From contig NZ_CP053084.1 in assembly GCF_013004065.1 (NCBI RefSeq), positions 3,162,001-3,226,000 of the forward strand: a stretch of 64,000 bases of DNA, in the 5' to 3' direction. Source of the DNA: Limnobacter sp. SAORIC-580 (lineage in GTDB: Bacteria; Pseudomonadota; Gammaproteobacteria; Burkholderiales; Burkholderiaceae_B). Position 1 is the stretch's first letter. Each line of letters begins with the position of its first letter. Positions 14,031 to 26,433 of this stretch are shown here, piece by piece. The notes beneath the pieces were generated by a model. It was given only the letters and a program-made list of their open reading frames with translations, was not told the origin of the DNA and did not search any database. The position numbers and the translations under genes are program-made.

Positions 14031-14810
14031 CTACTTCTCCACAAACGCCCGCTCAATCACATAATCCCCGCGCTCGCCCTGCCTGGGGCTAATCTTTAAG
14101 CCCTTCGCATCCAGCAGTTTGCAGGTGTCTTCCAGCATGCTGGGGCTGCCGCAAATCATGGCGCGGTCGTGTGCAGCGTCCAATGCTGGCAGGCCCAAAT
14201 CTTCAAACAACTTGCCGCTGTGCATCAGGTCGGTCAAGCGGCCGCGGTTGCGGTAGGGTTCGCGGGTTACGGTGGGGTAGTACAGCAAGCGGCCTTGCAC
14301 CAGTTCGCCAATGTATTCCTGCTTGGGCAGTTCTTCGCGAATGTAATCGGAATAGGCCAATTCGCTCACGGTGCGCACGCCGTGTACCAGCACCACTTTG
14401 TCGAATCGCTCGTAGGTGTCGGGGTCGCGAATAATGCTCATGAAGGGCGCAAGGCCGGTACCGGTGGCCAGCAGGTACAGGTTTCGCCCGTCGTTCAAGT
14501 CGTCGATCACCAAGGTGCCCACTGGCTTTTGGCCCACAATCAATTGGTCGCCGGGCTTTAAGTGTTGCAGGCGGGAAGTCAGCGGGCCATCGGGCACTTT
14601 GATGCTCAAAAATTCAAGATGTTCTTCGTAGTTGGCGCTGGCGATGCTGTAAGCGCGCAGCAGCGGTTTGCCTTCGGCTTGTAAACCGATCATCACGAAG
14701 TGCCCGTTGTGAAAACGCAAGCCGGGGCTGCGGGTGGTTTTGAAGCTGAACAGCGATTCGTTCCAGTGGTGCACTTCCAGCACGGTTTCAAATGCCAAAT
14801 TGCTCATCAT
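14031..14810 (-). CDS. fpr: Ferredoxin--NADP reductase
   Basis: A 259-residue flavoprotein of the bacterial Fpr class. The FAD-binding domain has the RAYSIAS motif near residue 55 (RxYS). The NADP domain has LLATGTGLAPFMSI near residue 112 and the AMICGSPSM segment near residue 215. The aromatic residue expected at the C-terminus is replaced by the ending FVEK, as in subclass II reductases that extend past the tyrosine. It moves electrons between NADPH and ferredoxin or flavodoxin. It is the last gene of a ten-gene operon that also encodes two ferredoxins and an AprA-like flavoprotein, so it is probably the NADPH gate of that pathway. It overlaps the DUF971 gene by 4 nt. Confidence 0.92.
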   Translation of the reverse strand: MMSNLAFETVLEVHHWNESLFSFKTTRSPGLRFHNGHFVMIGLQAEGKPLLRAYSIASANYEEHLEFLSIKVPDGPLTSRLQHLKPGDQLIVGQKPVGTLVIDDLNDGRNLYLLATGTGLAPFMSIIRDPDTYERFDKVVLVHGVRTVSELAYSDYIREELPKQEYIGELVQGRLLYYPTVTREPYRNRGRLTDLMHSGKLFEDLGLPALDAAHDRAMICGSPSMLEDTCKLLDAKGLKISPRQGERGDYVIERAFVEK

Positions 14811-15100
14811 GCAACTCCAAGTTCACGCAGGTAGGCCCAGGGGAAAATTCCACGTTCGTGGCCGTCTGCAAATTTAAAGTTCAGGGCGTGTTCGCCCACC
14901 ATTTCAATGCCGGTAATGGCGCTGCCCTGCACCACGGCTTGCCCTGCGCGCTGCGCAGCCACGCATTCTGCACACTTGCAATGTGTACGCAGCAAACTGT
15001 GGGGCAATTCGCTAACCGCGCCGTCGGCCCATTCAATGCGCAACAGTTGCGAGGCGCGTTGGTCTGTAACCGCAACGGGTTGGATTGATGCGCTGTTCAT
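14807..15100 (-). CDS. DUF971 domain protein
   Basis: A 97-residue stand-alone DUF971 (gamma-butyrobetaine hydroxylase-like N-terminal) domain. It shows the RIEWADG-x-SELPHSLLR start and a CKCAEC cysteine cluster near residue 42, then FADGHERGIFPWAYLREL at the end. The related eukaryotic domain binds zinc, and related bacterial proteins have been connected with Fe-S cluster handling. The Cys cluster and the position between the importer ATPase and ferredoxin reductase genes, overlapping both by 4 nt, suggest a metal-related accessory role in the operon's Fe-S enzymes. That role is inference. Confidence 0.82.
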   Translation of the reverse strand: MNSASIQPVAVTDQRASQLLRIEWADGAVSELPHSLLRTHCKCAECVAAQRAGQAVVQGSAITGIEMVGEHALNFKFADGHERGIFPWAYLRELGVA

Positions 15101-15963
15101 CGCAACGTCTCCATGCCTTCTTCGCCCAAGTGCCAGCTTTGGCCCATGGTGGCGGGGTCAATTTCGCCACCCATGGCAGCCAGGCTTTCTTCGCGAATCA
15201 GGCTTTTCAGTTGGCGGTGCAAGGCTGTGAACACGGGCGAAGCGGTCATGGCAGCCGAACGTGGCCGTGGCAAATCGATGGGAATTTCCGCCTTGATTTT
15301 TCCGGGGCGGGCGGTCATCACATACACACGGTCGGACAGAAAAATGGCTTCTTCAATGTCATGCGTAATAAACAGCACCGAGATTTTCCATTGCTGCCAC
15401 ATGTGGGTCAGAATTTCCTGCATCACTACGCGGGTTTGGGAATCGAGTGCACCGAAGGGTTCGTCCATCAGCAACACGCGCGGGCCGGTGGCCAGTGCCC
15501 GCACAATGCCCACGCGTTGTTTCATGCCACCGGAAAGCTGATCAGGATAATGGTTCTCGAAAGGCAGCAAACCAGCCAAACCCAACAAGGTGCGCGCCTT
15601 GCCTTCTCGCTCGTGGCGAGCCATGCCTTGCAGCTTCAAACCGAACTCCACGTTCTCGCGCACCTTGAGCCAAGGAAAGAGTGAGTACTGTTGAAACACC
15701 ACACCACGTTCGGCACTGGGGCCATGAATGGCCTGACCATCCATGGTGACCACACCATCGCTGGGCTTCAGGAACCCGGCCACAATGTTCAACAGCGTAC
15801 TTTTACCGCAACCTGATGGGCCAACCACCGACACAAACTCACCGGGCTGCACATTCAGGGAAACATCCTGAACAGCAGCAAAACGCGCACCGTTTTGAAT
15901 GAAGTTCACCTGCACATTGCTCAGTTCAATACAGCCCTCGGGCTTTTTCACAGTGCTGTTCAT
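15097..15963 (-). CDS. ABC transporter ATP-binding protein (nitrate/sulfonate/taurine type)
   Basis: A 288-residue ATPase of the SsuB/TauB/NrtD class. Walker A is GPSGCGKST near residue 47, the signature is LSGGMKQRVGIVRAL near residue 143, Walker B is VLLMDEP, and the switch His lies in FITHDIEEA. I use the ATG at 15963, which has GGAGG 7 nt upstream and overlaps the permease stop by 4 nt; the longer open frame has no support. It energises the importer made with the next two upstream genes. The C-terminal 40 residues contain the usual SsuB-like extension. Confidence 0.92.
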   Translation of the reverse strand: MNSTVKKPEGCIELSNVQVNFIQNGARFAAVQDVSLNVQPGEFVSVVGPSGCGKSTLLNIVAGFLKPSDGVVTMDGQAIHGPSAERGVVFQQYSLFPWLKVRENVEFGLKLQGMARHEREGKARTLLGLAGLLPFENHYPDQLSGGMKQRVGIVRALATGPRVLLMDEPFGALDSQTRVVMQEILTHMWQQWKISVLFITHDIEEAIFLSDRVYVMTARPGKIKAEIPIDLPRPRSAAMTASPVFTALHRQLKSLIREESLAAMGGEIDPATMGQSWHLGEEGMETLR

Positions 15964-16949
15964 TTTCCACCTCCGGGCCCGGCAATCTGTTGCCAAGGCA
16001 TGAGCAAACGGGCCAGCAGCAAAATACCGCCACTGCACAACAAACCCAACACGCCAATCACGATCATGCCCAGCACAATGTTGGGGTACTCAATCAGCGA
16101 GTACGCTTCCCAAGTGAAATAACCCACACCGAACTGGCCTGAAATCATTTCCGCTGCAATCAGCGACACCCAAGCCACGCCCATGCCCACCGCCAAACCG
16201 GTGAATACATTGGGTAGGGCTGCAGGCAATATCACTTTGGTCAGCATGGTGAACTCATTTGCACCCAAACTTTTTGCAGCGCGCAGCAGCACAGGGTCAA
16301 CGCCCTTCACACCCGCCATGGTGTTGATCAGGATTGGAAAGAAGGCGCCAATGAAGGTGATGAAAATAATGCTGCTTTCTGTGGTGGGCCACAGCATGAT
16401 TGAAATGGGCACCCAGGCAATCGCAGGAATTGGGCGCAACACTTCAAGCGCTGGAAACATGAGGCCCCGCACCACCGCAAAGCGGCCGCACAGCAGGCCC
16501 AAGGTGACACCCAGGGCTGTGGCCATGGCAAAGCCCTGCATAATGCGCACCACGCTTTTCCAGATGTTGGTTTGGAAGCGCTGGTTTTGCATCAACTCCA
16601 CCATGTTGGTGAACACTTCACCCGGCGTGGGAATATTGTTGAAGCGCACATAAAAGTCGAGCTTGTACAAAGTGGCCACATACCAGAAGGCCACCAATGC
16701 GCCGATCGACAAAAACGTCATCAACGCAGCCAGGCTGTGCTTTTTTGCACTGATCAAAAACAGTTCACGTGCAGGCAGTTTTTCAGCCACTTCGGCTTTG
16801 GCACGCACTGCAACGCGTGGCGCACTGCCGGGTGCGTCCACCGCTTGCAAGGCAGGTTCTTTCGCCCCGGGGGCGAGGGTACTGGCTTTCACCACCGGGG
16901 CATAAGGCTTCGCAGCCGCGGGCATTTGAATTTCAAGAGGTCGGGACAT
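15960..16949 (-). CDS. ABC transporter permease (nitrate/sulfonate/taurine type)
   Basis: A 329-residue permease with about six transmembrane segments and the EAA-like loop GVKGVDPVLLRAAKSLGA near residue 220, typical of SsuC/TauC/NrtB proteins. The N-terminal 70 residues are unusually long, soluble and rich in Ala, Pro and Lys. Gene spacing is 3 bp after the binding protein and a 4-nt overlap with the ATPase, so the three make one importer. Transported substrate is unknown: the family covers nitrate, cyanate, taurine, alkanesulfonates and thiamine precursors. Confidence 0.9.
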   Translation of the reverse strand: MSRPLEIQMPAAAKPYAPVVKASTLAPGAKEPALQAVDAPGSAPRVAVRAKAEVAEKLPARELFLISAKKHSLAALMTFLSIGALVAFWYVATLYKLDFYVRFNNIPTPGEVFTNMVELMQNQRFQTNIWKSVVRIMQGFAMATALGVTLGLLCGRFAVVRGLMFPALEVLRPIPAIAWVPISIMLWPTTESSIIFITFIGAFFPILINTMAGVKGVDPVLLRAAKSLGANEFTMLTKVILPAALPNVFTGLAVGMGVAWVSLIAAEMISGQFGVGYFTWEAYSLIEYPNIVLGMIVIGVLGLLCSGGILLLARLLMPWQQIAGPGGGK

Positions 16950-16952
16950 GGT

Positions 16953-18416
16953 TTATTTCCCCACTACTGCAAGTGCAAGTGCATCGTCATAGAGGCCCAC
17001 TTTGCCGCCGTTCTTCGCGGCAAAAGCCTCTGCGTCTTTCTTCAACAGAAAGGGCACAATCTCGGGAGTTTTGGCACCGGCTTTCAGGGAATAAAATGCT
17101 TTGTCGGCAAACACCTTGATCTTCATGCTTTGGTCGTACACATAGGCCACGCCAATTTTCTTGCCTTCTCCTTGGGCTTTCTTGATGGCAGCCAGCGTGC
17201 AATTGGCCGACTTGTAGGCAGTAATAGCGCCGCCCTCTATCCACACTTCGCCAGCTTGGCGTGGTTCGGTAATTTTGCCGCCGCACAGCGGGTCGGTGCC
17301 GCTAATTTCATAGTTGGTGGTGCTGGCCTTTTGCTTGGCGTAGTCCAAACCCAATTCCTTGAAGGCTTGCTTCACGTAGGTTTCGTCTACCCAGGCATCT
17401 GCATCGAATTCCTTCACGCGGCCCATGCGCTTGAGTACACCGTGATCGTATTTCACGGTTTCAACCCACTTGGGTTTGATGGTGGGGTCTAGGGTGTGTA
17501 CACCGCCTGGGCCCAAAAACATGTACGCCACTTCTTTCTCAATGCGGGTCCATTCTTCAATTTTGGCTGCGGCCTGCACCGGGTTTTTGCGTACCCAGTC
17601 GTTGGCTTCCATCAATGCCTTGATGTAGGCCACCACAAACTCGGGGTACTTCTTGGCGAAGTCTTCGCGTACCACCACGCCGTGGAATGTGGGCACTTTG
17701 GTTTCAGCGCCGTCGAAAATTTTGCGGGCAAAACCACGGTAAGGAAGAAGCTCGGCAAACGGTACAAAGTCAGCATGGCCATCAATGCGCTTTTCTTGCA
17801 AGCTGGAGGTGCCCACTTCCGGACTTTGGCTGGAAAGCTCGAAGTCTTCGGCAGTCCAGCCACGGTCTTCCAGCGCCTTGAGCAACATACCATGTGCTGC
17901 CGACCCAAAAGGCACGGAGAGTTTTTTGCCTTTCAGGTCAGCCAGCTCATAGTAAGGGGAGTCTTTGTGCACCACCACGCCATTGCCCGCACCTTCCGCG
18001 TTGTAGGCAATCAGCGCAATCAGGCGGCTTTTGGTTTCATTGCCGTTTTGAAACGTGGCACCGTTCACCAGCAGCGGGTAGTCGCCCATCATGCCGATTT
18101 GCAAAGTATTGGCCACCATGCCGTTGGTCACGGGTGGGCCAGAAGTGAAGTTTTGCCATTCAATCTTGAACTGAATGTCTTTGAAACGTGGCACCTTGGC
18201 CAGGTGCTTTTCAATCAAGCCGAGTTCTTTCAATACAACACCGCCAGTTACTGTGTTGGTGGTGGTGTTCTGTGTACCAATTCCCACCGTGACCACTTCG
18301 GCCAATGCTGGAAATGAAAGTGTGCAGGCCACCAGCGCGCTGGCTGCGCGAATGCCGATGAACCTGCCAACTACCTTGCCCTGTGCTGCGATTCCTTTGA
18401 AGATTCCCGTGTTCAT
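16953..18416 (-). CDS. ABC substrate-binding protein (NMT1/SsuA-like) fused to a NosL-like domain
   Basis: A 487-residue secreted protein. The ATG at 18416 has AAAGGA upstream and opens a signal peptide ending near FPALAEV. Residues about 40-350 form an NMT1/THI5-like binding domain (LNGMVANTLQIGMMGDYPLL, FGSAAHGMLLKAL). This family usually stops near 330 residues. Here about 110 further residues (378-487) follow. They contain CGGKI, VAYVYD, DKAFYSL, a VPFLLKKDAEAFAAKNGGKV stretch and LYDD, which resembles NosL, the copper-binding accessory lipoprotein of nitrous oxide reductase. The canonical NosL CGM is CGG here. Such a fusion is unusual and may report a metal-linked substrate. It is followed within 3 bp by the permease. 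Confidence 0.82.
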   Translation of the reverse strand: MNTGIFKGIAAQGKVVGRFIGIRAASALVACTLSFPALAEVVTVGIGTQNTTTNTVTGGVVLKELGLIEKHLAKVPRFKDIQFKIEWQNFTSGPPVTNGMVANTLQIGMMGDYPLLVNGATFQNGNETKSRLIALIAYNAEGAGNGVVVHKDSPYYELADLKGKKLSVPFGSAAHGMLLKALEDRGWTAEDFELSSQSPEVGTSSLQEKRIDGHADFVPFAELLPYRGFARKIFDGAETKVPTFHGVVVREDFAKKYPEFVVAYIKALMEANDWVRKNPVQAAAKIEEWTRIEKEVAYMFLGPGGVHTLDPTIKPKWVETVKYDHGVLKRMGRVKEFDADAWVDETYVKQAFKELGLDYAKQKASTTNYEISGTDPLCGGKITEPRQAGEVWIEGGAITAYKSANCTLAAIKKAQGEGKKIGVAYVYDQSMKIKVFADKAFYSLKAGAKTPEIVPFLLKKDAEAFAAKNGGKVGLYDDALALAVVGK

Positions 18417-18506
18417 GTCAACAATCCTTTTCAATAGACTCGTTTCAAAATTGGTGCCAGGTGGTTGGCTGTATTTGACAGTCGGAATATTTGAATGCTC
18501 TCGGGC

Positions 18507-18848
18507 TTAGGCCTTGTCTGTGCAGGCTTCCTCCAGGTACTGCTTTTTGTTCGTGATATCAACCCAGGCGTCAGCGTCTTCCAGCGGCTCTTTGGCGCTG
18601 TCAATCACCGGCCACAGCTGAGCCAACCTTGCATTGATTTCAATGAATTCCTGCTGGTCCGCTGGAACATTGCCTTCTTCGTAAATTGCACTGGCTGGGC
18701 ATTCAGGAATGCACACACCACAATCGATACAGCCTTCAGGATTAATCACGAGGAAGTTCGGCCCCTCGTGAAAGCAATCCACCGGGCACACCGACACGCA
18801 GTCGGTGTATTTGCATTTAATACAGGCTTGCGTCACCACGAATGTCAT
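18507..18848 (-). CDS. fdxA: Seven-iron ferredoxin (3Fe-4S/4Fe-4S)
   Basis: A 113-residue FdxA-type ferredoxin with [17 protein letters not shown] at the N-terminus and [16 protein letters not shown] near residue 40. That gives the Cys pattern for one [3Fe-4S] and one [4Fe-4S] cluster, and the C-terminal helical tail is typical of the Azotobacter FdI family. In this operon it is the second ferredoxin, lying between the HEAT-repeat protein and the importer. It is the natural electron carrier between the operon's ferredoxin-NADP reductase and its flavoprotein. It is not the housekeeping [2Fe-2S] ferredoxin. Confidence 0.9.
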
Positions 18849-18859
18849 GGCAAATCCCC

Positions 18860-19807
18860 TTAGCTGTGTTTCAGCGTGATGTTGGTCAGTGCCAGGCGGG
18901 CCAGTTTTCGCACATCCGGGTCGTTGTCTTCCAGCGCTTTTTCAAGTGCGGGAATGGCCCGTTTGTCACCAATTTCACCCAAGGCAATGGCCGCCTCTTT
19001 TCTCAAATTGCTCACGGTGTCGTTCATGGCTTCCACCAGTGCAGGAAGCGCAGGCAAAGCCTTCATGACACCCAAGGCACGCGCTGCTTTCACACGCACT
19101 TGCCAGTAATCGTCTTGCATGGCTTTCACCAGTTCATCGGTGGCCTGTGCCATGCCCAGCTTGCCAATGGTGGCTGCGGCTTCTTCTCGCACCATCCACA
19201 CGCTGTCGTTCAAAGCCCGCATCAGTGAAGGCAGCACACTAACCTCGTTCGTGTAACCCAATGCACCCACGGCAATTCGGCGTACTTCACCATCGGGGTC
19301 GTGGGCCGCCACTTCAGCCAGCTCACCCACTGCCTCTGCACGCTTGAGGTAACCCAGCACACCCACTGCTTCACGGCGAACTGCCGGGCTGGGGTCTTTC
19401 AACTGGTTCAAGGCGGGCTCGTAAGCTTCAGGCACCCGCAACGCACGCACAGCTTTCAAGGCCAGCGAACGCACAGTGGCATCCGCGTGGGTCAGCAGCG
19501 GAATCAAGGGCGGCGCCGATTCAGATTCTTTCAATTCGGCAAGCACCAAACCGGCCGCTTCTTGAACCACTGCTGATGTATCTAGCAGCATCTGTGCCAA
19601 AGCTGTGACCGTGGTTTGATCCTCGAATCCTTCCAGTGCACGCACTGCTTCCAGGCGCACATTGGCATCGGCATCGTGCAGGCAAGGCAGCAACAACAAC
19701 TCAATGTCGTCTTCATCGCTGTAAGGCAAGTCAATCACAGCCAGTCGGCGTACTTCGGCATCGGGGCTGTTCAGCCGTTCTTGCAAGGTAGGAATTGCAA
19801 TGCTCAT
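18860..19807 (-). CDS. HEAT-repeat protein (PBS lyase-type repeats)
   Basis: A 315-residue all-helical solenoid of about nine 31-residue HEAT repeats, with recurring blocks such as D-x-EVRRLAV, [20 protein letters not shown] and VRKLARLAL. The start at 19807 has AAAAGGAG 7 nt upstream. Similar repeats occur in phycobilin lyases and in scaffold proteins that bring redox partners together. In this operon it lies between the two ferredoxin genes, so a scaffold or assembly factor for the flavoprotein/Fe-S complex is the best guess. No catalytic motif is seen. Confidence 0.85.
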
Positions 19808-19820
19808 GGTGTGCTCCTTT

Positions 19821-20054
19821 TCAGCGCAGCAAGAATGGAATGTCCACATGCACAGCACCTGTGGGGCAATCTTTTTCACAGGGCAGGCAATACCAGCATT
19901 CATCAAATTTCATGAATGCCTTGCCGGTGACGTGGTCAATGGCAAGCACATCGAGCGGGCACACATCCACGCACACGGTGCAGCCTTTTTCGGCAATGCA
20001 TTTCTCGGAATCCACCTTGACGGGGACTTGGGTAATTGTTGCGGCCATGGTCAT
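19821..20054 (-). CDS. AprB-like 2[4Fe-4S] ferredoxin
   Basis: A 77-residue protein with two four-Cys motifs: CIAEKGCTVCVDVCP at residues about 19-33 and CWYCLPCEKDCP at about 53-64. The first has a widened Cys spacing and the second follows DECWYC, both as in the N-terminal ferredoxin part of adenylylsulfate reductase beta (AprB: CWECYSCIKICP). The AprB C-terminal tail that wraps the alpha subunit is missing. It sits 34 bp after an AprA-like flavoprotein gene, so the two very probably form the redox enzyme, with this subunit feeding or taking electrons from FAD. Confidence 0.85.
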   Translation of the reverse strand: MTMAATITQVPVKVDSEKCIAEKGCTVCVDVCPLDVLAIDHVTGKAFMKFDECWYCLPCEKDCPTGAVHVDIPFLLR

Positions 20055-20088
20055 GTTCAGTACCTCTCGTGTTGTGTGTTAGGGCAAA

Positions 20089-21813
20089 TCAAGCGGCTTC
20101 ACCGACCACGCGCAAGCGCTGGTAAGCATCCATTTCCTTTTCATCGATGGGCACAATGTAGGGCTCGATTTCCTTTTTCTTCATGGCCATTTGGCCTTGC
20201 GCGTTTTTGTACAGCAGGGTGTGGCAGAACCAGTTGGCGTCATCGCGCTCGGGGTGGTCTACGCTGTAGTGGTAAAGGCCCCACCTGCTTTCGGTGCGGA
20301 ACAGGCTGGCGCGCGCGGCCATTTCGGCGCAGTCGATGATCGAATGCGTTTCCATGGCGCGCATCAATTCATGGGCATTGGTGGCCACCATGTTTGCCGC
20401 ATCGGCGCGTACCTCGTCCATGCGGCGCAAACCGATTTGGTATTTGCGGGTTACTTTGGGCGGCTGCAAATAGTCGTTGACCAAGCGGCGTGTTTTATAT
20501 TCCACCTGGAAGGGTGTAGGCCCCTCGGTGCGCAGCAGCGGCGCTTCAATGCGATCGTGCTCGGCTTTTACTTGTAACTCGTCCAGTTCATTCAGTGTGT
20601 TTTCAGCGCAGTAGGCGGCGGCGTTTACACCGCAAATTTTCCCGTACACAAATGCACCCAGCATGTAGTTGTGCGGCACGCTGGCGCAGTCGCCGGCAGA
20701 ATACAAACCAGGTACTGATGTTTCACCTTGCGCATTGATCCAGATACCGGAGGCACTGTGACCACTGCAAAACCCGATTTCGGAAATGTGCATTTCAATC
20801 ATTTCCTTGCGGTAGTTGTTGCCACGCTGCTCGTGGAAACGGCCACGGCTTGGGCGCTCGTTGGTGTGCAAAATAACCTCAATCTCGCTGATGGTTTCTT
20901 CAGCGAGGTGGTCCAGCTTCAAGAACACAGGGCCATTGCCACTTTGCAGTTCGCGATAGAACTCCATCATCATTTGGCCACTCCAGTAATCGCATTCAAT
21001 GAAGCGCTCACCGGCTGCGTTGGCCGTGTAACCTCCGAAGGGGCCGGTCACATACGCACAAGCTGGGCCGTTGTAGTCTTTGATCAACGGGTTGATCTGG
21101 TAGCACTCCAGGTTGGCTAATGCAGCACCTGCGTGGTAGGCCATGGCATGGCCATCGCCGCAGTTGGTGGGGTTCTCGTAGGTGCCCATCAAATAGCCTG
21201 AAGAAGGCAAGCCCATGCGGCCGGCTGCGCCCGTGGCAATAATGGCGGCCTTGCAGCGAATAACATAAAAATCTGCCGTGCGGCAATCAAAGCCCATCAC
21301 ACCGGTGATCTCGCCATTGGCACCAGTCAGCAAGCGCGTACACACCACGCGGTTGGTGACTTCCACACGGGTGCGCTTTAGCTGGCGGTACAGCACGCGC
21401 TTCATGTTGTGGCCCTCGGGCATGGGCAACACATAGCTGCCCAGGTGGTGAACCTTGCGCACCGAATAGTCGCCGGTTTCATCTTTCTCGAATTTCACGC
21501 CCCATTTGTCGAGTTCCTGAATCATGTCAAAGCTGTTCGCGGCATACGCCATGACTGCCTCTTGGTCCACAATGCCGTCGTTGGCAATCGTGATTTCCTT
21601 CACATACTGCTCGGCTGTGGCGTGGCCAGGAATCACGGCATTGTTCAAGCCATCCATGCCCATGGAAATTGCGCCGCTGCGTTTTACGTTGGCCTTGTCC
21701 ACCAGCAGCACACGCAGCTTGGGGTTTTGTTCTTTCGCTTTGACGGCAGCCATGGGGCCGCCTGTGCCGCCACCAATCACCACCAGGTCGTATTCCAAGT
21801 CGATGCGTTTCAT
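20089..21813 (-). CDS. AprA-like FAD-dependent oxidoreductase (fumarate reductase/succinate dehydrogenase flavoprotein superfamily)
   Basis: A 574-residue flavoprotein. The start at 21813 has GAGGAG 7 nt upstream. The dinucleotide fold VVIGGGTGGPMAAV is near residue 12, and VDKANVKRSGAISMGMDG near residue 40 matches the FAD loop of adenylylsulfate reductase alpha. IIATGAAGR lies near residue 197. The late SGHSASGIWINAQG and GLYSAGDCA segments are shared with AprA more than with SdhA/FrdA. True AprA is about 620-660 residues and pairs with a longer AprB. No sat, dsr or aprM genes are nearby. I therefore call it AprA-like with unknown substrate, probably a sulfur or nitrogen compound brought in by the operon's importer. 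Confidence 0.85.
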   Translation of the reverse strand: MKRIDLEYDLVVIGGGTGGPMAAVKAKEQNPKLRVLLVDKANVKRSGAISMGMDGLNNAVIPGHATAEQYVKEITIANDGIVDQEAVMAYAANSFDMIQELDKWGVKFEKDETGDYSVRKVHHLGSYVLPMPEGHNMKRVLYRQLKRTRVEVTNRVVCTRLLTGANGEITGVMGFDCRTADFYVIRCKAAIIATGAAGRMGLPSSGYLMGTYENPTNCGDGHAMAYHAGAALANLECYQINPLIKDYNGPACAYVTGPFGGYTANAAGERFIECDYWSGQMMMEFYRELQSGNGPVFLKLDHLAEETISEIEVILHTNERPSRGRFHEQRGNNYRKEMIEMHISEIGFCSGHSASGIWINAQGETSVPGLYSAGDCASVPHNYMLGAFVYGKICGVNAAAYCAENTLNELDELQVKAEHDRIEAPLLRTEGPTPFQVEYKTRRLVNDYLQPPKVTRKYQIGLRRMDEVRADAANMVATNAHELMRAMETHSIIDCAEMAARASLFRTESRWGLYHYSVDHPERDDANWFCHTLLYKNAQGQMAMKKKEIEPYIVPIDEKEMDAYQRLRVVGEAA

Positions 21814-21824
21814 GTTCACACTCC

Positions 21825-22592
21825 TCAAGTTCGGTTGATGCGCAAGCGATACTGGAATGCATCGCCCCGGTAATACAGGTATTCAAAGTCGATGGGCTTG
21901 TCGCCCGCGTAAGTCATTCGTTCCATGCGCAGCAAGGGGCAGCCCTCGTCCACACGCAGTTGTTGGGCCAGCGATTCATCGGCTGAAATGGCTTCAATTT
22001 GCAAATCCGCGTGGGTCAGGTTGTAGCCGTGGTCGTTTTCCAGAATTGCAAAAATGTCGCGCACAGCCAAATCCTCTTGCAGCAACTTTTCCCCAATCTC
22101 GATTGGGAAATAACTGACATCCACTGAAATGGGTTCGCGATTCAAAAAGCGCAGGCGCTGAATTTCAAATACAGGCTGACCAGGTTTGACATGCAGGCGA
22201 TTGGCCACCTGTGCGGTAGCTTCAACCGGCTTTGCGCTGAGCACGTTCGAGTAGGTTTCATAACCCGAGGACGACATGGCTTCACCAAAACCCTGCAAAC
22301 GCGACAGGCTTTGAAACGCTTTGGGTTTGGACACAAAACTGCCCTTGCCCATCACTTTGAATATCAGGCCTTCTTTTTGAAGGTCGCCCAGCGCCTGGCG
22401 AATGGTGATTCGGCTTACGCCAAACATACGGATCATTTGGCTTTCAGAGGGCATTTGTGTGTGCGGTGCGTAGGTGCCATCGAGAATGCTTTTGCGCAAC
22501 TTTTCCCGCACCTGGGTGTACAAGGGCAAGGCCGACACATTGGTATCGAATGCTTGCTCTTCCACTACTTTGATCGCTGATTTCCCGTTCAT
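21825..22592 (-). CDS. GntR family regulator, HutC/UTRA subfamily
   Basis: A 255-residue repressor. The winged helix-turn-helix is at about residues 20-90 (MPSESQMIRMFGVSRITIRQAL), and the UTRA ligand-binding domain at about 105-245 shows the family segments PVFEIQRLRF and CPLLRMERMTYAGDKPIDFEYLYYRGD. It is the first gene of the ten-gene redox/importer operon and ends 11 bp before the flavoprotein start. It most likely represses this operon and is relieved by the imported compound or a product. A perfect palindrome lies just upstream. Start at ATG 22592 preferred; 22610 is also in frame. Confidence 0.9.
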   Translation of the reverse strand: MNGKSAIKVVEEQAFDTNVSALPLYTQVREKLRKSILDGTYAPHTQMPSESQMIRMFGVSRITIRQALGDLQKEGLIFKVMGKGSFVSKPKAFQSLSRLQGFGEAMSSSGYETYSNVLSAKPVEATAQVANRLHVKPGQPVFEIQRLRFLNREPISVDVSYFPIEIGEKLLQEDLAVRDIFAILENDHGYNLTHADLQIEAISADESLAQQLRVDEGCPLLRMERMTYAGDKPIDFEYLYYRGDAFQYRLRINRT

Positions 22593-22617
22593 ATTTGCTG
22601 CCTGAATCAAACTTGTT

Positions 22618-22629
22618 ATGACAGGTCAT
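22618..22629. promoter_or_regulatory. Palindrome ATGACAGGTCAT upstream of the GntR-led operon
   Basis: ATGAC-AG-GTCAT is a perfect inverted repeat 25 bp before the gntR ATG. Its size fits a GntR/HutC operator and nothing else in the 130-bp gap does so clearly. A single copy was found. Confidence 0.4.
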
Positions 22630-22740
22630 GATATGCATAGACCGTGCCAGCTTTTGTTGCACCGTAGCAGTGCTGTTTTTGCTGCTTTACCTATTTATTA
22701 CTTGCACTTGTGCGGCATTGCGTTTTCTGGGCAACCCAAA

Positions 22741-23778
22741 TTAATGCGCTGCAGCACCGCTTTGAATCACGTGCACCAAGACGAATCCTGCTGCCCAAAG
22801 GTGAATGCACAAGGCACCACCCAGCACCCACACCTTCCCGCCCGCAGCGCGCAAATCAAGCCAGCGCGTGCCCACGCCCAAAGCCGCCAGCCCGGTGGCC
22901 ATTAACAACTGGGACAAATCAACCAAAGCAGTTTCCAGTGGAATACTCAGCACACCCGTGGATTTCAACACCACTGCCAACAAGAACCCCCACAGAAACA
23001 AAGGGGGTTGCATGGACACATGGCTGACTTGAGCGCCTGGCTGTTTGCGCTGCTCGCGCACCATGTGCCAGGCCAGCCACACCATGGCCGGCGCCAGCAA
23101 GGCCACACGCAACATTTTCTCGATCAATGCGAATGCGGGTGCTTCACCACCCACCAGCGCAGCGCCCGCTACCACATGCCCCAATTCATGCACGCTTAAG
23201 CCCAGCCAAAGGCCAGTGAAATCGGCCTGCAAATTAAACAGCCACTGAAACCCCGGTATGGCAAACATGCTAAGCGTGCCAAACACCACGGCTGTGCCCA
23301 AGGCAGCTGAGGTGGCCGCGGGTGGCGCACGCAATACCGAATCTGCCGCAGCAATGGCTGCACCCCCGCAAATTGCGCTGCCAGCACCAATCAGCAGAAA
23401 ACTGCTGGCCTGCAAGCCCATGCGCTTGCCCAACCAAGCCGCCAACCCCAAAGTACTTGCCACAACAAACACCGCCGCCAATACACCTTGCCAACCCACG
23501 GCGAGCAAATCCGCAAACCCCAACTGGAAACCAAACAAGGCAATGCCCGTGCGCATGACATGGCGGCGAGCAAAACCAAACCCAACTTGACCGTGCCGAA
23601 CCAAGGCAGGAGCGGTATTGCCAAGTGCCATGCCCAGGAACATGGCCAGAGGCAACAAGCCAAGGCCCCAACTTGCAAGGCCACCCGGTACAGCGCCCAG
23701 CCAGGCCAATGCAGCCAGCAAAAAGCTGAGCAGCAAACCAAAAGGCAAGGCGGTGTTGGGGGCTTGAAGAACGCGCAT
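22741..23778 (-). CDS. YeiH family putative sulfate exporter
   Basis: A 345-residue membrane protein with about ten hydrophobic segments. Family segments are GIALFGFQLGFADLL near residue 78, an AGSAICGGAAIAA stretch near residue 130 and GLSVHELGHVVAG near residue 195. YeiH proteins (PSE family) are annotated as sulfate or sulfite exporters, with little biochemistry. It is divergent from a LysR regulator 94 bp away, the same pairing as yeiH/yeiE in enteric bacteria. Its position next to an AprAB-like operon and the occurrence of two TauE permeases in the window make a sulfur-export role plausible. Confidence 0.87.
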   Translation of the reverse strand: MRVLQAPNTALPFGLLLSFLLAALAWLGAVPGGLASWGLGLLPLAMFLGMALGNTAPALVRHGQVGFGFARRHVMRTGIALFGFQLGFADLLAVGWQGVLAAVFVVASTLGLAAWLGKRMGLQASSFLLIGAGSAICGGAAIAAADSVLRAPPAATSAALGTAVVFGTLSMFAIPGFQWLFNLQADFTGLWLGLSVHELGHVVAGAALVGGEAPAFALIEKMLRVALLAPAMVWLAWHMVREQRKQPGAQVSHVSMQPPLFLWGFLLAVVLKSTGVLSIPLETALVDLSQLLMATGLAALGVGTRWLDLRAAGGKVWVLGGALCIHLWAAGFVLVHVIQSGAAAH

Positions 23779-23872: not shown

Positions 23873-24742
23873 ATGAATTTACACCTTCTTAAAATTTATG
23901 TTTGCGCGGTGGAAGAAAACAGTTTCACCAAGGCAGCAGAGCAACTGGGCATCAGCCAGCCCGCAGTTTCAAAAGCCGTGCGAGAACTGGAAGCGCAACT
24001 GGATACCCTGCTGCTTGAACGCCAGGGCAAGTACTTCAAACCCAATGAGGCCGGGCAAGTGTTGTTTGACTATGGCAAAAGCCTGTTTGCCATGGAACGC
24101 GAAGCCAGCGAAGTACTGCGCGCCTTCAAGAACCTGGAACGCGGGCGCCTGATTGTGGGTGCAAGTACCACGATCGCCAGTTATTGGCTGGCGCCTTACC
24201 TGAAGAAGTTTTCAGACAAACACCCCGGCGTGGATGTACAGATGGTAGGCGCCAACACCGAGAACGTGGCTCAACTTTTACTGGACTGCAAAGTGGATGT
24301 GGCCCTGGTGGAAGGCGAGGTGGTCGACGAACGCATTGAAACCCGTTTGTGGCGCACCGAAGAAATGGTCGCCATTGCACCCAGCTTTGAGAATGGCGCG
24401 CGCAAACGCGAACTGGAGCAGCAGGTGTGGATACTGCGCGAACAGGGCTCAGGCAGCCGCAACGTGGCGGAGCAATTGCTGCAGAACATGGGGATACAAG
24501 CCCAGCGCACACTGGAGATGAACAGCAACGAGGCGATTATCCAAGCTGTTGCAGCGGGTTGCGGTGTGGGCATTGTGCCTAAAATTACCGCACGAGATCA
24601 ACTTGCCTTGCGCCGCGTAAAACGCTTTGCACTGGGTTCAGGAAAAATGGAACGCCCCTTGTTCAGGCTGCGCTTGCCACACAGGCCGCTGAGCAATGCG
24701 GCGCTGGCGTTTGAGGCTTTGTTGGGGGCTCCCAAGCACTGA
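23873..24742 (+). CDS. LysR family transcriptional regulator (YeiE-like)
   Basis: A 289-residue LysR protein. The N-terminal helix-turn-helix is clear (SFTKAAEQLGISQPAVSKAVRELE, residues 18-41). The effector domain starts near residue 90 (GRLIVGASTTIASYWLAPYL), with AAGCGVGIVPK near residue 225. It is divergent from the YeiH exporter gene and separated by a palindromic LysR box, so it most likely controls that exporter. The start ATG lies 1 bp after the palindrome, which leaves an unusually short leader; a downstream start would remove part of the helix-turn-helix, so I keep it. Confidence 0.9.
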   Translation: MNLHLLKIYVCAVEENSFTKAAEQLGISQPAVSKAVRELEAQLDTLLLERQGKYFKPNEAGQVLFDYGKSLFAMEREASEVLRAFKNLERGRLIVGASTTIASYWLAPYLKKFSDKHPGVDVQMVGANTENVAQLLLDCKVDVALVEGEVVDERIETRLWRTEEMVAIAPSFENGARKRELEQQVWILREQGSGSRNVAEQLLQNMGIQAQRTLEMNSNEAIIQAVAAGCGVGIVPKITARDQLALRRVKRFALGSGKMERPLFRLRLPHRPLSNAALAFEALLGAPKH

Positions 24743-24748
24743 TCAATT

Positions 24749-25798
24749 CTATTTAAGCCGGTACCACGCACCACGCCCACTGCCCAACTGCTCCAAATGC
24801 CCTGCCTCAGTCAGATTTCGAAAATGTTGTTTCAAGGTATTTCTGCTGGCGCCAGTCAAGCGGACCATTTCGCCGATGGTGACACGGCCATGTTCTTTGG
24901 CGAACTCGACAATACTTAACGACCAGGGTGGCAAAGCGGCAAGCACAATTCTTTCGCGTTCAACTTTCTTTTCCAATCGACGCACTTGCTCAGCCAAGGA
25001 ACGCAAAAAAAACACAATCCAGGAATTCCAGTTCGGAGACTCGGATCGAATGGTACCTTGGGTTTGCCGCAAGGCCAGATAATAGGCCTCTTTGTTCAGC
25101 TCGATCACACTTTCAAGCGAGCTGTAAGGAACATAGGCATAACCTGCCTGCATGAGCAGTAAGGTGGTTAGCACCCGGCTTAGTCGGCCATTCCCATCTT
25201 GAAACGGGTGTATTTCAAGAAACACCACAGCGAAAATGCCGATGATCAGCAAAGGATGCAGCTCGCCTTTTTGGCGCTCTTCGTTGACCCACTCAATCAA
25301 TTCAGCCATCAAGCGGGGGGTATCAAACGGAGTCGCTGTTTCAAAAACAATTCCGATTTGCACACCACTAAGGTCAAACGCAGCCACACTGTTGGAGCTG
25401 GTTTTATAAGCGCCGCGATGTCGGCTGTCTTTGTTGCTGTGCTTGAGCAAAACCTGATGCAGTTGCTTGATGTGATTTTCGTTAAACGGAATGTCTTGCC
25501 AAGCGGAAAACACCAAATCCATCAGCTCTGCGTAGCCAGCAACTTCCTGCTCGTCTCGTGAATCAAAAGACTGAATAGAGAGATTGGAAAGCAATCGCTC
25601 CACATCGCGATCGCTCAGTTTGCTGCCCTCTATTCGAGTGGAGGAACCGATACTTTCAATGGTTGCAATTCGTCGCAAGGCGGAAAGACGGTCTGGCGCC
25701 AGTGTACCCAAAGCACGCCAAGCGCCTTTGAACTCGTCGATGCGAGCAATCAGGCGCAAAATTTCGGGAGAAATTTGAAGTGAGTGTGTATTCAGCAT
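24749..25798 (-). CDS. Fic family AMP-transferase with C-terminal winged helix
   Basis: A 349-residue class II Fic protein. The autoinhibitory motif (S/T)xxxE(G/N) is STRIEG at residues 53-58. The catalytic loop HPFQDGNGRLSR is complete at residues 197-208, so AMP transfer to a hydroxyl should be possible once inhibition is relieved. The last 60 residues form a winged helix (GRVTIGEMVRLTGASRNTLKQHFRNL), suggesting DNA binding and self-regulation. It stands alone, convergent with lysR. Direct repeats of TTACACCCA precede it. Confidence 0.92.
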   Translation of the reverse strand: MLNTHSLQISPEILRLIARIDEFKGAWRALGTLAPDRLSALRRIATIESIGSSTRIEGSKLSDRDVERLLSNLSIQSFDSRDEQEVAGYAELMDLVFSAWQDIPFNENHIKQLHQVLLKHSNKDSRHRGAYKTSSNSVAAFDLSGVQIGIVFETATPFDTPRLMAELIEWVNEERQKGELHPLLIIGIFAVVFLEIHPFQDGNGRLSRVLTTLLLMQAGYAYVPYSSLESVIELNKEAYYLALRQTQGTIRSESPNWNSWIVFFLRSLAEQVRRLEKKVERERIVLAALPPWSLSIVEFAKEHGRVTIGEMVRLTGASRNTLKQHFRNLTEAGHLEQLGSGRGAWYRLK

Positions 25799-25896: not shown

Positions 25897-26433
25897 TCAA
25901 TTCACCGCCCAGAATCGGTACTCGGCCTTGTAACTTACCTCGGCTTTCTCGCCATCATTGTCAGCCGAGCACTTTTTGGCTGGCGCTACACCACCTTGCG
26001 TATTCACGCGCTGCACATAACTGACTCCGGTCAAGGCACCCTGCCCGCCGGCCACATCGGCTTTCACCAGTTGAAGGGGAATGTTTTTGCTGCCGTTGGG
26101 CGACACAGCCACTTGTGAGCCGGTGACAAACGAACCATCTTGGTGTGTCCAGCGCGCGGGCGGACCCGAATAGTCGCCAATCTTCTTTCCTTTGGCATCG
26201 TTCAACACTGCTTTGGGGCCAGCCATGGTCCACTTGTAAGCAGTCAGCGGGTCTTTCTCTTTGCTGCATTCATAAGTAATTTGTCCCTCGGCGCGGGTTT
26301 CCAGCACCAAAGTGTTGCCTGTGGCCACTTGAATCAATGCGGGTAAATTCCTCTGGTCGGTGTGCATTTGGGCATATGACGTTGCGGCAAGCAGCGTTAT
26401 CGACAAAAACAAAAAGCATTGTTTGATTTTCAT
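25897..26433 (-). CDS. Secreted DUF3455 protein
   Basis: A 178-residue protein with a signal peptide (FLFLSITLLAATSYAQ, cleavage near residue 21). The mature part reads as a DUF3455 domain: GQITYECS near residue 50, AYKWTMAGPKAVLND, GPPARWTHQDGSFVTG near residue 90, and the last third with Cys and YRFWAVN. The family is extracellular and of unknown function in bacteria and fungi. It stands alone between the Fic gene and the sensor kinase. Confidence 0.85.
   Translation of the reverse strand: MKIKQCFLFLSITLLAATSYAQMHTDQRNLPALIQVATGNTLVLETRAEGQITYECSKEKDPLTAYKWTMAGPKAVLNDAKGKKIGDYSGPPARWTHQDGSFVTGSQVAVSPNGSKNIPLQLVKADVAGGQGALTGVSYVQRVNTQGGVAPAKKCSADNDGEKAEVSYKAEYRFWAVN

Follow-up and report, generated by a model that had tools for sequence, protein, structure and literature searches.

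A ten-gene Limnobacter cluster with a possible role in releasing sulfite from a sulfur compound that it imports

Described systems closest to the cluster

The adenosine 5′-phosphosulfate (APS) reductase AprAB and the 3′-phosphoadenosine 5′-phosphosulfate (PAPS) reductase MtPAPSR of Methanothermococcus thermolithotrophicus (structure 8a8o) combine an FAD-binding α subunit with a small 2[4Fe-4S] β subunit that carries the Trp of a CW.C motif. We analysed a 64,000-nt stretch of the Limnobacter sp. SAORIC-580 genome (the window; positions 3,162,001–3,226,000 of NZ_CP053084.1, the single contig of a 3.3-Mb genome), in which a ten-gene operon on the minus strand (22592–14031) encodes a protein pair of this type and an importer. 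The flavoprotein belongs to the same superfamily branch as the α subunits of MtPAPSR and AprAB and shares their Asn, Lys-Asp, Glu and His residues. Unlike these enzymes, it forms a separate clade in which the positions of Arg265, Trp234 and Gln145 are replaced, and it is accompanied by its own importer, a HEAT-repeat partner, a ferredoxin–NADP reductase (FNR) and an FdxA-type 7Fe ferredoxin. Sulfonate-type uptake, the kinship with sulfate-reducing enzymes and sulfite exporters nearby in some lineages suggest that the cluster may take up a sulfur compound and liberate sulfite from it.

SsuABC and TauABC resemble the cluster in binding-protein fold and ABC layout, whereas the binding protein of the cluster carries an extra NosL-like domain and the host lacks a SsuD- or TauD-family protein. 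The arylsulfonate system AsfRABC is described as comprising, as does the cluster, a reductase, a ferredoxin, a binding protein and an ABC transporter for sulfonates, but its regulator is of LysR type and that of the cluster of GntR type. NF006131 and PRK13800, the latter spanning flavoprotein and HEAT repeats, are named ‘fumarate reductase/succinate dehydrogenase flavoprotein subunit’, which implies dicarboxylates, although the flavoprotein has none of the succinate dehydrogenase (Sdh) active-site residues compared.

For the Acidithiobacillus caldus plasmids pAca1.1/pTcM1, passages of a 2025 paper name ‘ferredoxin/APS reductase/GntR’ and ‘NirT/TauT sulfonate transporter’ modules and predict that they serve organosulfonate uptake and assimilation (PMC12375680). 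In these passages the treatment includes no analysis of spread, phylogeny, residues, exporters or operator and no experiment. Plasmid pTcM1 is locus L108 of the present set. Among the open-licence papers listed in searches, no other describes the cluster; passages of PMC3826726 do not mention the A. caldus module, and those of PMC3506598, PMC7661421, PMC13352529, PMC8792954 and PMC6971185 do not describe the cluster.

Conservation, flavoprotein kinship and associated genes

We determined linkage in the best 80 of at least 595 flavoprotein matches (72–99% identical), counting genes on the same strand within 9 kb of the flavoprotein; some contigs end early, and 73 loci have long flanks. The ferredoxin lies beside the flavoprotein in 80/80 loci, and GntR is found in 79, the HEAT protein in 78, the binding protein in 72 (66 of the 73 with long flanks), permease and ATPase in 70 each, DUF971 in 63, FdxA in 24 and FNR in 18. 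The ten genes are one conserved system, and the linkage among relatives on which the initial annotation depended is kept across the 80 loci. Gene order varies between a Limnobacter type (flavoprotein–ferredoxin–HEAT–FdxA–importer) and that of Pseudomonas (flavoprotein–ferredoxin–importer–HEAT).

The matches listed include the flavoproteins of Limnobacter alexandrii (99% identical) and Limnobacter sp. MED105 (98%). The family is present above cut-off in 21 of 398 Pseudomonadota genomes drawn and in 6 of 16 Limnobacter genomes, host included, and its relatives span alphaproteobacteria, Pseudomonas, cyanobacteria and actinobacteria. A complete list at E ≤ 1e-30 holds 56 plasmid records with a homolog, and in 50 of them the match extends over 80% or more of the query; these records add rhizobia, Methylobacterium, Methylocystis, Acinetobacter, Acidithiobacillus, Pseudanabaena, Nostoc, Leptolyngbya, Tsukamurella and Nonomuraea, and the Klebsiella and Ilyobacter matches are only ~26% identical.

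The flavoprotein passes the curated cut-off of NF006131 (PRK08275). In the tree, 16 family rows group as a single clade (100/99), sister to the APS/PAPS reductases and separate from the Apr clade (100/100), with the placement of one long-branch row (L012) unsure; the flavoprotein thus falls outside the characterised groups, and its nearest solved relative is MtPAPSR. All 12 members compared have Asn at the position of AprA Asn74, and the His of the GH motif (His398 position) is present in the four members displayed and in the AprA rows; we take both numbers to denote conserved AprA residues. At the positions of His242, Glu255, Arg286, His354 and Arg399, which we assume to be the catalytic residues of E. 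coli SdhA, alignment by eye gives Asn, Gly, Gln, Ile and a gap. An identity as succinate dehydrogenase or fumarate reductase was rejected because these residues are missing and the clade is separate. In A. fulgidus numbering, Arg265, Trp234 and Gln145 give way to Leu, Tyr and Val in all 12 members compared; Arg265 and Trp234 are APS-binding residues of AprA, and since both are lost, a sulfur group would be held differently from APS. Passages of PMC10322725 describe Gln145 as APS-binding. An identity as APS reductase was likewise rejected, in view of the replaced residues, the separate clade and two genes of the PAPS_reduct family that the host carries outside the cluster, as it does genes of the NIR_SIR family. 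No aprA was found in the host at E ≤ 1e-60, which bears out the earlier statement that this is not ordinary sulfate dissimilation.

The 77-aa ferredoxin shows two [4Fe-4S] motifs in 130 and CW.C in 133 of 133 loci, a set that includes near-copies and some genes fetched twice. The same Cys-Trp-x-Cys is aligned in AprB of 3gyx; the cut-off of the AprB model TIGR02060 is not reached (37.9 vs 135.65 bits). For MtPAPSR, passages of PMC10322725 propose that Trp42 shares in electron transfer. FdxA and FNR would complete a path from NADPH, and the dedicated importer and locally controlled NADPH–ferredoxin–FAD path proposed from the gene content alone gain support. FdxA occurs with no FNR detected in 6/80 loci, one of which (L033) is a short contig; three such loci (L051, L079, L085) contain a large PRK06567-like oxidoreductase (~1160–1260 aa). 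A PRK06567-like oxidoreductase is also found on pTcM1 (606.9 bits, below the cut-off of 1072), and a relative at L160, again with no FNR detected. These partners agree with a reductase. In Tsukamurella, flavoprotein and HEAT repeats are fused into one 893-aa protein. An Mrp/NBP35 iron–sulfur carrier gene follows HEAT directly in two Pseudanabaena plasmids (L113, L168) and shortly after it in a Nostoc plasmid (L114), which suggests that DUF971 may serve cluster assembly.

TauA and SsuA head the list of folds most similar to the binding protein; the list also holds nitrate and bicarbonate binders, and the NMT1-type fold binds thiamine precursors too. Alignments show a Ser-x-x-His loop common to the binding protein, TauA (6ssy) and E. 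coli SsuA (2x26). Of 30 binding proteins aligned, 13 show by eye a Cys pair in the NosL-like domain, that of the window included, and copper as a general feature of the family was rejected on this count. The initial annotation had named a sulfonate, a cyanide-like or a metal-bound compound as possible substrates: the sulfonate gains support from the TauA/SsuA-like fold and the nearby sulfite exporters, no evidence was found for a cyanide-like compound, and a metal, dismissed as a general feature, may play a role in the subgroup of the window.

Twelve of the 27 genomes with the cluster have a YeiH-family gene (PF03601) no more than 10 kb from the flavoprotein (G000, G001, G004, G006, G011, G014, G071, G169, G217, G257, G417, G436, with one TAG in the copy of G004), compared with 0.135 expected under random placement; by genus, linkage is 3/12 (P ~3e-5, genome sizes rounded). 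A BLAST relative of the window’s YeiH is present at 17 of the 80 best loci, none of them from Pseudomonas, and lies upstream of the cluster in Limnobacter and Rhodocyclales and downstream in other Burkholderiales; LysR relatives adjoin it at six loci (L024, L025, L027, L028, L030, L032). In two Pseudanabaena plasmids YeiH and TauE/SafE directly follow the cluster, and in Aquabacterium TauE/SafE precedes GntR. Clustering of the flanks returned mainly what we read as antisense frames and species-conserved neighbours; the notable exceptions were YeiH and the PRK06567-like gene. According to PMC12880088, sulfite resistance in Salmonella involves activation of YeiH by YeiE. Judged by product names, sulfur genes lie near the plasmid copies in 9 of 18 annotated loci (L104, L105, L107, L113, L114, L116, L164, L168, L169), a count that leaves out candidates ~7 kb off at L106 and L109; they encode taurine dioxygenase, sulfonate/sulfate ABC transporters, LLM monooxygenases, 3-mercaptopropionate dioxygenase and exporters.

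Of 102 regions around GntR starts, 61 contain the operator core ATRACNNGTYAT, with 1.0 expected from the same loci, and 41 lack it; the regions with the core come from beta- and gammaproteobacteria, and some loci are near-copies. With at most one mismatch, the half-site TGACNNGTCATAACNAG occurs at one place in the host genome, at the operon, and the regulator therefore looks dedicated to it. A Crp/Fnr-type regulator instead of GntR stands in or beside the cluster at L107, L111, L116, L166, L167, L169 and L148–L156.

Candidate route to sulfite and its alternatives

On balance we lean, narrowly, towards a route in which electrons from NADPH pass by way of ferredoxins and FAD to a sulfonate-type compound after its import, reducing it and releasing sulfite. 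Linkage, kinship, lost APS residues, binding-protein fold, exporter linkage and operator were computed, and from these we infer reaction, direction, substrate class, cleavage and partner roles. The system would serve substrate-inducible sulfur scavenging: (i) the TauA/SsuA-like ABC importer would take up the sulfonate-type compound, (ii) electrons would pass from NADPH through FNR, the 7Fe ferredoxin and the AprB-like 2[4Fe-4S] subunit with its bridging Trp to the FAD of the AprA-like subunit, and (iii) this subunit would reductively cleave the sulfur group at a C–S, S–S, N–S or O–S bond and free sulfite. The HEAT protein may act as a scaffold for the flavoprotein enzyme and DUF971 may serve its iron–sulfur clusters, while sulfite would enter the cell’s sulfite reductase and any surplus would leave by YeiH or TauE exporters where these are present.

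Several observations weigh against this route. Plain C–S sulfonates have a poor leaving group, and with the APS-binding Arg and Trp replaced by Leu and Tyr an attack on sulfur is not guaranteed; confidence in the structure model of the flavoprotein is low around the active site (mean pLDDT 65.8), too low for the residues there to be interpreted. The binding protein reaches neither the SsuA model TIGR01728 (123.5 vs 163.5 bits) nor the TauA cut-off, and the importer is undetected in 7 of the 73 long-flank loci (L048, L049, L053, L069, L071, L094, L098). No YeiH lies nearby in 15 of the 27 cluster genomes, including all six of family f31 (taken as Pseudomonadaceae), and the frequency of sulfur genes near plasmid copies is not clearly above that of 20-kb controls (2/8, or 3/8 counting an LLM-class oxidoreductase). 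The host has no match to PF00296 (luciferase family, including SsuD) or PF02668 (TauD) at E ≤ 0.001, in a search confined to these two families, but across 16 Limnobacter genomes, PF00296 is absent from 5/6 with the cluster and also from 6/10 without it, and its lack is therefore not specific to the cluster.

A substrate with an S–S, N–S or O–S bond, such as S-sulfocysteine, sulfamate, a thiosulfonate or a polythionate, would be attacked at sulfur by FAD N5 as in APS reductase, a reaction that the kinship of the flavoprotein favours and that passages of PMC10322725 propose for MtPAPSR; it would call for a good leaving group. We consider it unlikely, though a serious contender, as the nearest folds, TauA and SsuA, bind C–S sulfonates, even if nitrate and bicarbonate binders are also alike. 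The compound may instead contain no sulfur and the exporters be incidental neighbours: this would agree with the other ligands of the NMT1-type fold, with the loss of the APS residues and with the 9 of 18 annotated plasmid loci that hold no sulfur gene outside the core. The above-chance linkage of YeiH in unrelated genera, the Apr kinship and the lead of TauA and SsuA in the fold list make this somewhat less likely still. Flavoprotein and ferredoxins might also only feed electrons to a separate desulfonating oxygenase, since passages of PMC4267179 and PMC2864759 describe AsfA/AsfB as a reductase–ferredoxin pair. That role is highly improbable for the present cluster, whose core contains no oxygenase and whose host yields no PF00296 or PF02668 match. 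Furthermore, NC_007974, which we take to be CHR2 of C. metallidurans CH34, the megaplasmid with asfRAB, is outside the complete 56-record homolog list at E ≤ 1e-30, and an identity of the flavoprotein with AsfA was rejected on this basis. A CH34 stretch located by gene-number interpolation (L112) matches none of the ten proteins and holds TcuA/TcuB-type genes, which may be Rmet_4334/5; the rejection draws on the homolog list.

A selenium analogue, in which a compound of organic or oxidised selenium would be taken up and reduced, is suggested by the best-scoring NCBIfam models, SaoA for the ATPase and SaoP for the permease (15097–16949), Sao being presumably a selenium-linked gene set, and by the selenium metabolism-associated model of the neighbouring LysR gene. 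All three score below cut-off and no selenium gene was noticed in the annotated loci, where no dedicated search was made, so that we regard this as very remote. It is hardly probable at all that the flavoprotein serves sulfate assimilation as a further kind of APS or PAPS reductase: its nearest solved relative is a PAPS reductase, but the APS-binding Arg, Trp and Gln are replaced in all 12 members compared, the host has two PAPS_reduct-family genes outside the cluster, and the flavoprotein travels with an importer of organic-anion type.

Should reductive release of sulfite from a sulfonate-type compound be correct, common soil, water and plant-associated bacteria would own an O2-free reductive sulfur route, and a Limnobacter lacking SsuD- and TauD-family proteins would have a reason to retain an importer of sulfonate type next to a reductase. 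A widespread family now called ‘fumarate reductase’ would then need a corrected name, and a new enzyme could be tried on persistent sulfonates. The broader proposal, in which O2-independent AprAB-like desulfonation constitutes a third kind of sulfonate scavenging beside the SsuD (FMNH2) and TauD (2-oxoglutarate) oxygenases across proteobacteria, cyanobacteria and actinobacteria, is tentative, and we are more inclined to doubt than to accept it.

Gene layout and neighbourhood

Open reading frames and profile searches agree with the gene order and domains given initially: GntR/UTRA, FAD_binding_2 with Succ_DH_flav_C, HEAT, 4Fe-4S/FdxA, NMT1, BPD_transp_1, ABC_tran, GBBH-like_N (DUF971) and FAD/NAD reductase (Table 1). 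The close packing described there holds as well, with one larger gap of 72–90 bases between FdxA and binding protein. From likely starts, the other gaps are 11 (GntR–flavoprotein), 34 (flavoprotein–ferredoxin), 13 (ferredoxin–HEAT), 11 (HEAT–FdxA) and 3 bases (binding protein–permease), and 4-base overlaps join permease–ATPase, ATPase–DUF971 and DUF971–FNR. The NosL-like domain, the upstream YeiH-family gene with its divergent LysR gene and the palindromic operator are additions to that description. Scans for promoter-like (4 vs 5.4) and terminator-like (16 vs 15.8) signals were at chance level.

Table 1 Features of the cluster and its upstream neighbours in the window
Feature	Position	Strand	Evidence
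LysR-family regulator, YeiE-like and selenium-LysR-like, divergent from YeiH-like gene	23873..24742	+	NF040786 208.4 bits (cut-off 250); YeiE NF040889 173.2 bits (cut-off 480)
YeiH-family putative sulfite/sulfate exporter, operon direction, 130–148 bases upstream of GntR	22741..23778	-	PF03601 219.7 bits (passed); TIGR00698 171 bits (cut-off 232.6)
Palindromic operator, predicted for GntR, core ATRACNNGTYAT	22611..22636	-	Motif counts at GntR starts
GntR/UTRA regulator, open frame from 22610	21825..22592	-	Profile match
AprA-like FAD flavoprotein, family NF006131, open frame from 21828	20089..21813	-	1060 bits (cut-off 587)
AprB-like 2[4Fe-4S] ferredoxin, 77 aa	19821..20054	-	CW.C motif
HEAT-repeat protein	18860..19807	-	Profile matches including PRK13800
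FdxA-type 7Fe ferredoxin	18507..18848	-	NF045490 157.4 bits (cut-off 135, passed)
Periplasmic binding protein, TauA/SsuA-like lobes and NosL-like C-terminal domain, likely ATG 18416	16953..18434	-	Profile and fold
NosL-like domain of binding protein, residues 383–484	16983..17288	-	PF05573 29.2 bits (cut-off 24)
ABC permease	15960..16949	-	Profile
ABC ATPase, open frame from 16038, likely ATG 15963	15097..15963	-	Profile
DUF971 (GBBH-like_N) protein	14807..15100	-	Profile
Ferredoxin–NADP reductase	14031..14810	-	Best model NF008178 156.6 bits (below cut-off 390)

Beyond the LysR gene lie genes for a Fic-domain protein (24749–25798) and a DUF3455 protein (25897–26433). The seven copies with no importer detected are of Ralstonia type or from Caballeronia and keep flavoprotein, ferredoxin and HEAT protein. 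On pTcM1 (L108:16065–20432) the binding-protein gene is seemingly split by an ISL3-type element, and the importer is on the opposite strand. A Pseudanabaena plasmid (L113:6646–8661) encodes a LysR regulator with an NMT1-like stretch (PF13379 20.8 bits, cut-off 24.7), as if it sensed the ligand of the importer. Three hosts distant from one another (L110, L114, L116) have genes for a GNAT acetyltransferase and an amidase or M20 aminoacylase close to the cluster.

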